From NCBI RefSeq assembly GCF_040712075.1, contig NZ_JBFCVL010000002.1, positions 310,001 through 374,000 on the forward strand: a stretch of 64,000 bases of DNA, given 5' to 3'. The translations under genes were made by a program, and so were the position numbers. This document shows, one piece after another, positions 3,919-40,740 of the stretch. The stretch's first letter is position 1; each line of letters begins with the position of its first letter. This stretch comes from Fodinicurvata sp. EGI_FJ10296 (GTDB lineage Bacteria; Pseudomonadota; Alphaproteobacteria; DSM-16000; Inquilinaceae). Under the pieces are notes generated by a model. It saw only the letters and a program-made list of their open reading frames with translations, did no database searches and was not told the origin of the DNA.

Positions 3919-3953
3919 GATTGCGGCCTCTGAATTGGTCTGGTGAGAAAGCG

Positions 3954-3985
3954 CAGAATTGGACATTTTCGACGACCCAATTCTG
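3954..3985. promoter_or_regulatory. Inverted repeat in the MocR/split-barrel divergent promoter
   Basis: CAGAATTGG (3954-3962) is repeated as its exact reverse complement, CCAATTCTG (3977-3985), with 14 nt between. It lies between the MocR-type start (3918) and the oxidase-like start (4038), where an autoregulated MocR protein would be expected to bind. Confidence 0.5.
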
Positions 3986-4037
3986 TCCTACTCGATGGTG
4001 GAGAAACGATCCACTTTCTAGTGTCGGAGATTCAGCC

Positions 4038-4703
4038 ATGACATCAGAAACCCTGCCCATCACCGAACGGACCCGTCTTCGGCGGAACCATCTGCGCGGA
4101 ACCCACGAACGGGCCACCATCGATGCCATTCTCGACGCAACCCCGATGTGCCATGTCGGATATCTGCTCGACGGCAAGCCGGCGGTCACGCCGACGCTTC
4201 AGTGGCGCGACGGCGATCGGGTATACTGGCATGGTTCCGCCGCCAGCAGGGCGCTGCGCAATGCGACCGAAGCCCCGGTCTGCCTGACCGTGACGCTGTT
4301 CGACGGTCTGGTCATGGCCCGGTCGGGGTTTCATCACTCCGCCAATTACCGCTCGGTCGTGATCTACGGCACAGCGACCAAACTGGACGACCCGGCTGAA
4401 AAGGCGGCGGCGCTGGAATACTTCATCGACCACCTGTTTCCCGGCCGCTCATCGACGCTGCGGCCGATGACCGATCAGGAGGTCAAGGCGACGACGGTCC
4501 TGTCGATGCCGATCGAGGAAGCGTCGGCGAAGGTCAGGACCGGACCGCCGGTCGACGACGAGGAAGACTATGAACTTCCGATCTGGGCCGGTGTGATACC
4601 GCTGTCCACGGTCGTCGGTGAGCCACAAGCCGATCCGCGCAACCTGGATGGTCTGGAACCGCCACCGGACGTGACAGCGTTCACGCTGGGCGGCAACCGC
4701 TAG
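4038..4703 (+). CDS. Pyridoxamine 5'-phosphate oxidase-related FMN-binding split-barrel protein
   Basis: A 221-residue cytoplasmic protein with the flavin split-barrel fold (residues about 20-150; TPMCHVGYLLDGKPAVTPT and the VVIYGTATKL strand are typical of the Pyridox_ox_2/NimA-like group). Members bind FMN, F420 or heme; the substrate cannot be read from sequence. It is divergent from a MocR-type regulator, which suggests control by PLP or an amino compound. The stop codon TAG is the first part of the inverted-repeat element at 4700-4775, so the gene ends inside the repeat. Confidence 0.8.
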   Translation: MTSETLPITERTRLRRNHLRGTHERATIDAILDATPMCHVGYLLDGKPAVTPTLQWRDGDRVYWHGSAASRALRNATEAPVCLTVTLFDGLVMARSGFHHSANYRSVVIYGTATKLDDPAEKAAALEYFIDHLFPGRSSTLRPMTDQEVKATTVLSMPIEEASAKVRTGPPVDDEEDYELPIWAGVIPLSTVVGEPQADPRNLDGLEPPPDVTAFTLGGNR

Positions 4704-4775
4704 TGGTTCGATTCCGACATTTGCATCCCATTTCCGCACGCTCCGTAGCAAATGTCGGAATCTATGAACCACTAG
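4700..4775. repeat. Inverted-repeat element A (76 bp)
   Basis: Outer arms CTAGTGGTTC (4700-4709) and GAACCACTAG (4766-4775) are exact complements, as are inner arms of 14 bp (ATTCCGACATTTGC at 4711-4724 with 4748-4761). The loop is 23 nt; the bulges are 1 and 4 nt. It includes the stop codon of the preceding gene and lies between convergent genes. No T-tract follows it. Confidence 0.85.
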
Positions 4776-4789
4776 TAAAACATTGTTAT

Positions 4790-4867
4790 CTAGTGGAATT
4801 TCGAATTTGACATTTGATCGAGCGCCTACCGCGGATTGGGTATCAAATGTCAAATTCATTCCACTAG
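4790..4867. repeat. Inverted-repeat element B (78 bp), sister of element A
   Basis: Outer arms CTAGTGGAAT (4790-4799) and ATTCCACTAG (4858-4867) are exact complements, as are inner arms of 16 bp (GAATTTGACATTTGAT at 4803-4818 with 4842-4857). The loop is again 23 nt. It shares CTAGTGG and GACATTTG with element A but differs elsewhere, with the arms co-varying, so both arms of each element have been kept complementary. Confidence 0.85.
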
Positions 4868-4879
4868 CACCGGGGTCCG

Positions 4880-6655
4880 TCAAAGAGGCCAGAAATACAG
4901 GATCAGGGGGACTCCGGTGGCCGTGATCACCATCTCCAACGGCAGGCCCATTCGCCAATAGTCGGTAAAGCGATATCCGCCCGGCCCCATGACCAGAGTG
5001 TTGGACTGGTGGCCGATCGGCGTCAGAAAGGCGCATGACGCGCTGACGGCGATCGCCATCAGAAACGGGTCCGTGTTGACGCCGAGCGCGTCTGCCACAT
5101 TGACCGCGATCGGCGCCATGATGACGGCGGCGGCATTGTTGTTGATGACGTCCGTCAGCACCATCGTCATCACAAACAGCACCAGCAGGATCACGCCCGG
5201 CGGCAGAGCCTCGATCTGCCCCACCAGTCCCATCGCGATCGCCGAGGCAGCACCGGAACTGTCCAGCGCCTGCCCAACCGGCAGCATCGCCCCAAGCAGA
5301 ATGACGATCGGCCATTCGACGTTGGAATATACCTCTCTCAGCGTGATGGACGACGTGAGTACCAGAGCGACCACGGCCGTCATGAACGCCGCATGCACCG
5401 GCAGCAGTCCGACTGCTGTCACGCCGATCGCCGCGCCGAATATCGCCGCCGGCAGCCAGCTTCTGCCGGTCGAGGCCTCGTTCAGGCCCCGATCGGCAAG
5501 GGGAAAGCAGCCCAGTTCGCGAAGGCTTTCGATCAGCGTGGCACTGTCGCCCTGAACGAGTATGACGTCGCCCACTTCCAGCCTTTTGCGGCCCAGCGGC
5601 GTCTGAATTGTCCGGCCATGGCGCGCCAGCCCGATCAGATTGATCCCGAAACGGCCATGCAGATGCAGTTCCGATGGCGTCCGTCCGATCATGGCCGAGG
5701 CCGGCGGGATCATCGCCTCCATGATCACCACCTTTTCCGATTCCAGGTCGCTCCGGTTGAACGATTTGCCGCCGCGCAGCTCCACCTGACCGGAGCGAAC
5801 GAGCTGGCGCAGGCTCGTGGGATCAGTTTCGACCACCAGAACATCGCCTGCCTGCAAGGTTTCGATCGGCGACGGCGCCAGTATCTTTCGCAATCCCCGG
5901 ATCAGGCTCATGACCGCCAGATTGCCGTCCATCCGCCGGCGCAGATCAAGGACCGTCCGACCGACAAGCTCCGATTCCTCAAGAATACGCAATTCCGATA
6001 TGTAGTCCTCGATCCTGAACAATTCGGTGTGCGACTGCCCCTTGCGGTTTTTCGGCAGCAGCCGCCAGCCGACCAGCGTGACAAACAGGATACCCACGAC
6101 GGCGATGCCCAGCCCGACCGGCGTGAAGTCGAACATGCCGAACGGCTCGCCGGTTTCGGTCTCGCGGTATGCGGAAATGATCAGGTTCGGCGGCGTCCCG
6201 ATCATCGTTATCAGCCCGCCGAGCAGGGTAGCGAACGACAACGGCATCAGGACAAGCGCCACGGGACGTTTTGCTTTCAGCGCACTCTGTATGGCGACCG
6301 GCAGAAGCAGTGCCAGCGAGCCGACATTGTTCATGAACGCGGAAAAGGACGCGCCTGCGACGGTCAGCGCACCGACATGGCCGGTCGTGGTCCCGGACGC
6401 CCGTGAAACCTGGCGGATCACGCCCTGCAGCGCGCCGGATTTGGCGATCGCCCGGCTGATGATGAGGACCGCGATCACGGTCACTACCGCCGGATGACCG
6501 AACCCCCTGAACGCATCGTTCGGCGGAATGGCGCCGACGATGACGCTGGCGGTCAGCGCAATCATGGCCACCACGTCGTAGCGGTACCGCCCCCATATGA
6601 ACAAGCCGAGGGCGGCGGCGATGATCGCGACGATCGTCCACTGATCGAATGTCAT
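4880..6655 (-). CDS. SLC13-family (anion:Na+ symporter type) permease with two RCK/TrkA-C domains
   Basis: A 591-residue inner-membrane transporter. About five to six hydrophobic helices (residues 1-205, with SAFMNNVGS and GTPPNLI, the signature loops of the DASS/CitMHS fold) are followed by two cytoplasmic TrkA-C modules (about 215-290 and 300-375) and a second helical half (about 395-591, with DVINNNAAAVIMAPIA and PIGHQSNTLVMGPGGY). Proteins of this build move sulfate, dicarboxylates or related anions; the substrate cannot be assigned. It is transcribed alone and convergent with the split-barrel gene across the two inverted repeats. Confidence 0.85.
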   Translation of the reverse strand: MTFDQWTIVAIIAAALGLFIWGRYRYDVVAMIALTASVIVGAIPPNDAFRGFGHPAVVTVIAVLIISRAIAKSGALQGVIRQVSRASGTTTGHVGALTVAGASFSAFMNNVGSLALLLPVAIQSALKAKRPVALVLMPLSFATLLGGLITMIGTPPNLIISAYRETETGEPFGMFDFTPVGLGIAVVGILFVTLVGWRLLPKNRKGQSHTELFRIEDYISELRILEESELVGRTVLDLRRRMDGNLAVMSLIRGLRKILAPSPIETLQAGDVLVVETDPTSLRQLVRSGQVELRGGKSFNRSDLESEKVVIMEAMIPPASAMIGRTPSELHLHGRFGINLIGLARHGRTIQTPLGRKRLEVGDVILVQGDSATLIESLRELGCFPLADRGLNEASTGRSWLPAAIFGAAIGVTAVGLLPVHAAFMTAVVALVLTSSITLREVYSNVEWPIVILLGAMLPVGQALDSSGAASAIAMGLVGQIEALPPGVILLVLFVMTMVLTDVINNNAAAVIMAPIAVNVADALGVNTDPFLMAIAVSASCAFLTPIGHQSNTLVMGPGGYRFTDYWRMGLPLEMVITATGVPLILYFWPL

Positions 6656-26287: not shown

Positions 26288-27354
26288 GCCAGGTCCCTTT
26301 CGGCCATCGCAACCCTGGTCAGCAAATACAGACTGGCGGAATAGTAATCCTGACCCTCGTTCAGCGACTGCAGGCCTGACGGCATCGCCTCGTCGGCAAC
26401 GACACAGTTCACAAGCGCCCGCACAGCCCGGTATCCCTGGCCGTCGGAGCGGTGCAGCAGTCGGTCGCTTCCCAGATCGACTTCAATCGCGACCGGCCCA
26501 TCGCCCTGATGGTCCCAGAGGTCCGCAATCGGCTGAATATCGTCGCCGGCGGACGGCTCATCCCACAGCAGGTAGAGCGGTACCCGCACGGCGTTGTAGC
26601 CGAAGCCGCGGAACAGATCGTCCATATCGTCGGGCAATGTTGTCAGGCGACCGTTGCTGCTGTCGATCACGACCCAGTCGGGGACCAGATTCAATCGGCC
26701 GAACCGCGCATTGCGAACAAGCCGGCGACCGGTTTCATGCACCGCGTCCCAAAGCGGATCGTTGTCGAAACGGCGGATGTCCGTCAATGCCGGAAAGATC
26801 CAGTAGGACGGATTGACGATGAAACCGCCTTCAACGTCGAACCCGCTGATCCCGGCACTGATGACCGGAACGGTGCCGACCCGGCGAATGAGGTTTTCCT
26901 TTATCCCGTCCAGTATGGCGCGCGCCGCCTCGGCGTGCTCGTCGATTCCCCAGGTCTGATGGGCTCTGATCAGCGCCCATGCGACCAGGATGTCGCCGTC
27001 GGGCGCCGGATTGGCGTCGGTGATCGGCGGCCTTTCGTCCTCTTCCCACCGCCAGGCGATCGATCTGTCGTCGCGCACCCAGATCCGGTGGCTCGTCCAG
27101 GACCAGATCGACCCGAAGGTTTCCAGGTCGTTGAAAGCGACCGCAAGCACCATGCCATAGCCCTGCCCTTCACTATGGCTGATATCGTCATTGCCGGTGT
27201 CGATGACGCGGCCATCCTCGACGAAAGAGTCGGTATAGAGTTGCCAGTCCCGATCGTCCGACTCGAACTCCTGTGCGTCGGCGCCCCTGTCCTGCATGAC
27301 AAAAGCAACGCAAACGGCCATTACCGCGATCCTGAATAGTGTGGATGCGATCAT
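26281..27354 (-). CDS. bcsZ: Cellulase / endo-1,4-glucanase BcsZ (GH8)
   Basis: A periplasmic endoglucanase of glycoside hydrolase family 8, 357 residues with a signal peptide ending about GADAQ (residue 28). E62 in HSEGQGYGM is the predicted general acid, and D119/D121 in APDGDILVAWAL belong to the active site. BcsZ trims nascent cellulose and is required for normal fibre export. The start (27354) overlaps the bcsB stop in an ATGA junction; frames extending upstream are not coding. Confidence 0.92.
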   Translation of the reverse strand: MIASTLFRIAVMAVCVAFVMQDRGADAQEFESDDRDWQLYTDSFVEDGRVIDTGNDDISHSEGQGYGMVLAVAFNDLETFGSIWSWTSHRIWVRDDRSIAWRWEEDERPPITDANPAPDGDILVAWALIRAHQTWGIDEHAEAARAILDGIKENLIRRVGTVPVISAGISGFDVEGGFIVNPSYWIFPALTDIRRFDNDPLWDAVHETGRRLVRNARFGRLNLVPDWVVIDSSNGRLTTLPDDMDDLFRGFGYNAVRVPLYLLWDEPSAGDDIQPIADLWDHQGDGPVAIEVDLGSDRLLHRSDGQGYRAVRALVNCVVADEAMPSGLQSLNEGQDYYSASLYLLTRVAMAERDLAC

Positions 27355-40574: not shown

Positions 40575-40659
40575 TCATTGGAGCGCCAGGATCCTGCAGA
40601 CGACCCTTTAGATACTAATGAAACATACGATCAGACGATCGCCAGCCCAATCACCGGAC

Positions 40660-40686
40660 AAAAAAAGAGCCGCGCAAATGCGCGGC
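40660..40686 (-). terminator. Rho-independent terminator, minus strand
   Basis: A seven-base-pair GC stem with an ATTT loop followed by CT and a run of seven T on the minus strand. It ends the sRNA and/or the aromatic-degradation operon. Confidence 0.85.
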
Positions 40687-40740
40687 CCGAGTTTAGGGAG
40701 GAAACGCCCAAGATGGACGCGCAGGACCCCGAAGGATCAC
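40660..40740 (-). ncRNA. Candidate trans-acting sRNA with a CCUCCC loop and terminator
   Basis: Read on the minus strand: a small stem GTTT/AAAC (40705-40691) exposes CCTCCCT, an anti-Shine-Dalgarno sequence, then a GCCGCGC-ATTT-GCGCGGC hairpin (40686-40669) and seven T residues (40666-40660). This is the architecture of alphaproteobacterial CCUCC-loop sRNAs (CcsR/cuckoo-like). The 5' end is unknown and may lie nearer 40780; it could also be processed from the 3' end of the transcript starting at 43158. Confidence 0.55.

Follow-up and report, generated by a model that had tools for sequence, protein, structure and literature searches.

Repeats of the REP/BIME type are palindromes of about 20–40 nt that carry a GTAG-type tetranucleotide and have a RAYT as their partner. 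The Rhizobium-specific intergenic mosaic elements (RIME), reportedly described by Osteras et al. in 1995, are said to be about 108 bp long and to consist of two large palindromes. The Bru-RS1 and Bru-RS2 repeats of Brucella are intergenic and palindromic, with a length of 103–105 bp, and form a favoured insertion site for IS711, an insertion sequence of the IS5 group that targets YTAR and duplicates TA. Finally, the Caulobacter CcrM-associated intergenic repeats (CIR; Chen and Shapiro 2003), of about 110 bp, are intergenic and combine two long inverted repeats with a linker and TA ends; GANTC is said to be located at their terminal loop, and the review in which they are covered reports no data on their mobility (PMC2229807).

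The window analyzed here, by which we mean the whole 64,000-nt stretch of DNA from Fodinicurvata sp. EGI_FJ10296, contains a twin-hairpin element that invites comparison with each of these families (Table 1). Like CIR, the element is intergenic, occurs in Alphaproteobacteria, has two inverted repeats with a linker and TA ends, and carries GANTC within the repeat; it is set apart from the CIR description by its length (167–170 bp instead of about 110 bp) and by the position of GANTC, which lies in the stem of one hairpin. On pSymB of S. meliloti, we found RIME-like twin palindromes of 104–106 bp with a linker and YTAG-AGC ends (L254, around 615–725; L252, around 26608–26714), which are probably RIME elements. 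These have the same two-palindrome plan with YTAG ends as our element, but are shorter and different in sequence, and across 200 kb of pSymB nothing matched our hairpin model strongly. Compared by description, Bru-RS and our element are both intergenic palindromic repeats, of which ours is the longer. As for REP/BIME, to which the original prediction had likened the locus, the hairpins of our element are mostly 75–80 nt long and bounded by CTAG, which speaks against that reading. The feature in the window is very probably a single mobile element of 168 bp, MITE-like and non-autonomous, and we consider it to represent a new twin-palindrome repeat of Alphaproteobacteria that is neither CIR, RIME nor Bru-RS, with the distinction from CIR and Bru-RS being drawn by description. 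Considering that our literature search covered open-licence papers, an earlier description of the family elsewhere is possible.

Two hairpins form a single unit

The original prediction, made from the sequence of the window, had described two adjacent inverted-repeat elements at this locus. The palindromes are real: each is bounded by CTAG at both of its termini, and each has a predicted RNA fold that none of the shuffled sequences equalled in stability (−37.1 kcal/mol, z −10.0 for hairpin A; −35.9 kcal/mol, z −6.9 for hairpin B). The loops of 23 nt and the outer arms of 10 bp were described correctly, whereas the inner arms, given as 14 and 16 bp, needed revision: the inner stem of hairpin A measures 15 bp and its right arm bears a bulge of 3 nt (TAT), while that of hairpin B has the predicted 16 bp and bears its bulge, also of 3 nt (TTC), on the left arm. 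Both bulges are therefore directed towards the spacer, from which it follows that B is inverted relative to A. This inverted layout, together with the recurrence of the whole A-spacer-B block in other places, makes A and B the two halves of one 168-bp non-coding unit and not two separate elements, as had been supposed.

The immediate surroundings of the unit were also anticipated correctly. Hairpin A supplies the stop codon of the upstream open reading frame, which terminates at the TAG within the first CTAG of the element, and the downstream neighbour is convergent. No T-tract accompanies the hairpins, and a scan of window positions 4500–5100 for terminator-like sites (a G+C-rich, short-loop stem followed by a T-tract) yielded none. 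The search pattern that had been proposed, CTAGTGG-N(3-5)-GACATTTG, gave 0 matches because the true gap between CTAGTGG and GACATTTG is 9–12 nt; with a wider gap, the pattern identified 7 half-sites in the genome of the window, and its reversed control 0.

Table 1. Features of the twin-hairpin element and its flanking genes, in window coordinates.
Feature	Position	Strand	Description and basis
Whole twin-hairpin element	4700–4867	.	168 bp, CTAG at each end; recurs elsewhere
Hairpin A (S type)	4700–4775	.	76 bp; sequence, fold, family alignment
Parts of hairpin A	stems 4700–4709/4766–4775 and 4710–4724/4748–4762; loop 4725–4747; bulge 4763–4765		
Spacer between A and B	4776–4789	.	14 nt
Hairpin B (W type)	4790–4867	.	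78 bp, inverted relative to A; sequence, fold, family alignment
Parts of hairpin B	stems 4790–4799/4858–4867 and 4803–4818/4842–4857; bulge 4800–4802; loop 4819–4841		
Left CTAG	4700–4703	.	Target copy; TAG at 4701–4703 terminates the upstream gene; empty site of a relative with a single CTAG
Right CTAG	4864–4867	.	Second target copy; sequence and comparison with the empty site of a relative
GANTC in left arm of hairpin A (GATTC)	4710–4714	.	Sequence
Second GANTC, right arm of hairpin A (GAATC)	4758–4762		Sequence
Upstream gene, pyridoxamine 5'-phosphate oxidase-like (Pyridox_ox_2)	3921–4703	+	ORF; Pfam PF12900, E 1.2e-43; start codon uncertain
Downstream convergent gene, CitMHS/sodium-sulfate-type transporter with TrkA_C domains	4880–6655	−	ORF; Pfam PF03600, E 1.1e-83

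A family of paired S and W hairpins in Alphaproteobacteria

A search of the whole genome and of related genomes had been suggested. Copies do occur in the genome itself, in a different genus and widely among related genomes, and we charted the distribution with a covariance model built on one hairpin and with the arm pattern CTAGTGGNNNGANTYYGACRTTTG. On another contig (C3) of the same genome, a copy that is 98% identical is truncated inside the loop of B and adjoins an IS5-type transposase remnant. Another genus of the same family holds the full block at 68% identity, next to an unrelated zinc-finger gene to which it supplies the TAG stop. In the GTDB collection, at least 118 stretches match CTAGTGGNNNGANTYYGACRTTTG, and among the matches listed every record that could be placed by its title belongs to Alphaproteobacteria, the genera including Brucella/Ochrobactrum, Rhizobium, Mesorhizobium, Agrobacterium, Chelatococcus, Pleomorphomonas, Novosphingobium, Sphingobium, Nitrobacter, Methylocystis, Rhodomicrobium and others. 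Several genomes contain dozens of dispersed copies each, with counts of the half-site pattern reaching 92 forward and 94 reverse in a genome, and the reversed pattern was found 0 times in 20 genomes. When an even sample of the class was searched with the covariance model under stricter filters, a match was obtained in 10 of 289 genomes. A few copies are present on plasmids and eight viral contigs have arm matches; no relative was found in phage records. What had been a puzzling double palindrome is in this way tied to a class-wide mobile family.

We extracted at least 89 full copies, and 73 of 89 units have a length of 167–170 bp. The arm sequence CTAGTGG...GACATTTG is repeated four times per element, and terminal inverted repeats are present, as the outer arms of the S and W hairpins are inverted copies of each other (CTAGTGG...GA.T..GACATTTG). 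The two hairpins, homologous to each other yet of distinct types, are inverted relative to each other and stand head to head across a short spacer (12–14 nt in 84 of 86 units). Where the two loops were both readable (70 units), exactly one S and one W hairpin were found in 64. The arm facing the spacer exceeds its partner by 3–5 nt in 151 of 172 hairpins. S arms usually carry GANTC at the stem position where W arms carry GANTT. Within a unit, the S and W loops resemble each other slightly more than permuted pairs do (0 of 5000 permutations), perhaps because of common ancestry.

The observation that the arms of the two hairpins differ, yet are each self-complementary, turned out to be true throughout the family. 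A variable triplet at stem positions 8–10 is matched by its complement in the opposite arm of 142 of 172 hairpins, and is identical between the two hairpins of a unit in 0 of 86 cases. In an alignment of 78 sequences, 98.1% of the stem cells hold standard pairs, and of the 25 pairs 14 have changed on both sides. Covariation scored 0.348, compared to 0.129 in shuffles, and slid pairings did not exceed 0.098; all of these figures are inflated by relatedness, which the slid-pairing controls nonetheless retain.

Shorter relatives of the same plan, about 132–140 bp in length and with other arm sequences, were detected by the covariance model in genomes of the window's family. Their arms read CTAGTGTC in one genome (G009; 14 model matches) and CTAGTGGTTCGAATCTGACAG in another. 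In the former, the twin family measures 132 bp (loci L020, L025, L029 and others), and several copies adjoin a further palindromic repeat (ATCAAGATCGCTTC...). We also observed single CTAG-bounded hairpins in which an S arm is joined to a W arm (L080, 5365–5437; L123, 7102–7173; L146, around 7310), which are fusions by internal deletion.

Insertion at CTAG and the search for a mobiliser

A clean empty site could be read once, in Brucella, at a locus other than that of the window; the orthologous sites of the first loci examined were too diverged for this purpose. A 967-bp query containing the B. tritici copy, with the element at 400–566, aligns to B. cytisi in two segments that join at one CTAG (query 1–401 to 352281–352681; query 563–966 to 352680–353083). 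The empty site therefore contains CTAG once, and the filled site contains it twice. In other words, the target site was duplicated at this locus, with duplication of TA and of CTAG being indistinguishable. For a plan related to that of CIR, this supplies points that the review had left open for CIR, namely an empty site, a CTAG target and an exact unit.

Further traces of insertion were found in B. daejeonensis, where tandem copies have a common CTAG between neighbours. Several of the tandem members are closer to distant copies than to the adjacent one, and these sequence relationships would suit independent insertion into a terminal CTAG. The arrays comprise 2 or 3 elements with the CTAG shared (L216, L217, L218, L219 and L220), and are arranged head to tail, never head to head. 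We rejected this strict order as proof of directional insertion, because the reverse order would yield a perfect palindrome about 330 bp long; instability is to be expected of such palindromes, and their loss may explain the arrays equally well. A second twin-palindrome family, with CTAGTGTGG ends, is nested at the inner CTAG of one copy (L223, around 320–490). The element is shorter than about 200 bp, has no coding capacity and is dispersed in multiple copies, as is the case for MITEs; the further copies, the empty site, the tandem and nested insertions and the CTAG duplication all speak for the MITE-like reading, one of several that had been offered.

We propose that a transposase acting in trans would recognise the arm sequence, and that insertion at CTAG would duplicate either CTAG or its inner TA. 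Insertion at a ...C-TAG stop would leave the gene intact, allowing the insertion to survive. The paired arms with their spacer-facing bulge are probably kept as a DNA substrate for movement, rather than for the sake of the transcript. A bolder and rather unlikely extension of this scheme is that the bulged hairpins themselves, either as an extruded cruciform or as folds of single-stranded DNA, might be read by an undescribed enzyme. This enzyme would require an S hairpin together with a W hairpin and would insert at CTAG, in which case the CTAGTGTC, CTAGTGTGG and RIME-like YTAG-AGC twin palindromes would constitute one superfamily moved in this manner.

Among the loci examined, none held a longer element that combines a transposase with matching ends. 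IS630 was considered as mobiliser and rejected: DDE_3 (Pfam) hits in five genomes of the window's family have no matching ends, and the ends of 12 IS630 plasmid elements differ from those of the twin-hairpin element. Inverted half-sites 0.6–4 kb apart, considered as candidate autonomous elements, proved to be MITE pairs or degenerate copies. The CTAG of our element fits the targets of IS870 (CTAG) and of the IS5 group with IS711 (YTAR). According to the title of the paper describing it, IS870 requires CTAG; it likewise draws on CTAG for a stop codon, in this case that of its own gene. No element of these CTAG- and YTAR-targeting groups was found to have matching ends, and IS870 is likened to our element by its target and its stop codon. 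In two genomes, IS5-type remnants or ends abut truncated twin elements (L002, 1291–1545, on contig C3 of the window's own genome; L021, around 1630), with YTAG-like junctions as for IS711 in Bru-RS repeats. The strict pairing of S with W and the conserved bulge turn the mobilising enzyme into a well-defined search target.

Stop codons and the level at which the structure is maintained

With genes called by a simple codon-usage heuristic, not a validated tool, an end CTAG coincides with the TAG stop of a gene in 36 of 91 units (about 40%), two of which serve two convergent genes simultaneously; in an annotated Agrobacterium plasmid copy, the CTAG supplies the stop of an RraA-family gene. As background, we considered the CTAG sites of the same loci. 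Stop codons are overlapped by 30 of 123 non-genic sites (odds ratio for the units 2.1, p 0.015), and only 5 units overlap predicted genes, as opposed to 71 of 194 background sites that are intragenic. Stop-codon placement is thus mostly a matter of random CTAG insertion and loss of harmful insertions, where insertions at ...C-TAG stops survive because CTAG contains TAG and the gene is left intact. A modest extra preference for stops remains, which may reflect some target preference or function there. The siting of such repeats at stop codons is hereby explained, as the duplication keeps both adjoining reading frames intact, also where two convergent genes have one CTAG in common. The genes flanking the units are convergent in 15 cases, tandem in 50 and divergent in 13 (n = 78), which is no different from background CTAG sites (18, 75 and 27, respectively; n = 120), and the convergent setting in the window is therefore not typical.

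These figures bear on another reading contained in the original prediction, namely that the hairpins act in the flanking transcripts as a bidirectional terminator or protect mRNA 3' ends. Such a role would be in line with the very stable RNA folds, with the position of the window unit between convergent genes, where it overlaps a stop codon, and with the contact to a stop codon in about 40% of the units. However, T-tracts are absent, convergent pairs are not enriched (13 units even lie between divergent genes), and Rfam contains no family corresponding to the twin-hairpin element. Were pairing important in RNA, G-U mispairs would be expected to be tolerated more than A-C mispairs on the transcribed strand. 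In the stems of our family, we counted 32 G-U versus 26 A-C mispairs on that strand (p 0.51, with limited power). The lack of a G-U preference and the missing T-tract favour maintenance of the structure at the DNA level over maintenance as a terminator or RNA-stability element. Since gene context, terminator scan, Rfam and mispair counts all failed to support a function in RNA, we regard this reading as improbable, while a side effect of the element on individual transcripts is possible.

We give still less credence to the idea that the palindromes are homogenised by template-switch correction during replication, with no selection on the structure. Perfectly matched S hairpins that lack the bulge do occur in B. 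daejeonensis, and look like products of such correction. Nevertheless, the bulge persists on the same side in the great majority of hairpins, as counted above (151 of 172), where correction would have erased it, and this retention disfavours simple homogenisation; moreover, neither dispersal nor CTAG duplication would be accounted for. There is next to no chance, finally, that the locus is a local palindrome duplication without wider meaning or function, the counter-case raised in the original prediction: A and B do lie side by side with arm motifs in common, but the presence of the A-spacer-B unit in other genera and orders refutes it. Movement of a single unit as a MITE-like element remains our preferred reading for the locus. 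Elsewhere in the window, the minus strand at 40653–40725 has an Rfam match to the alphaproteobacterial sRNA mmgR (RF00519, 53.7 bits).
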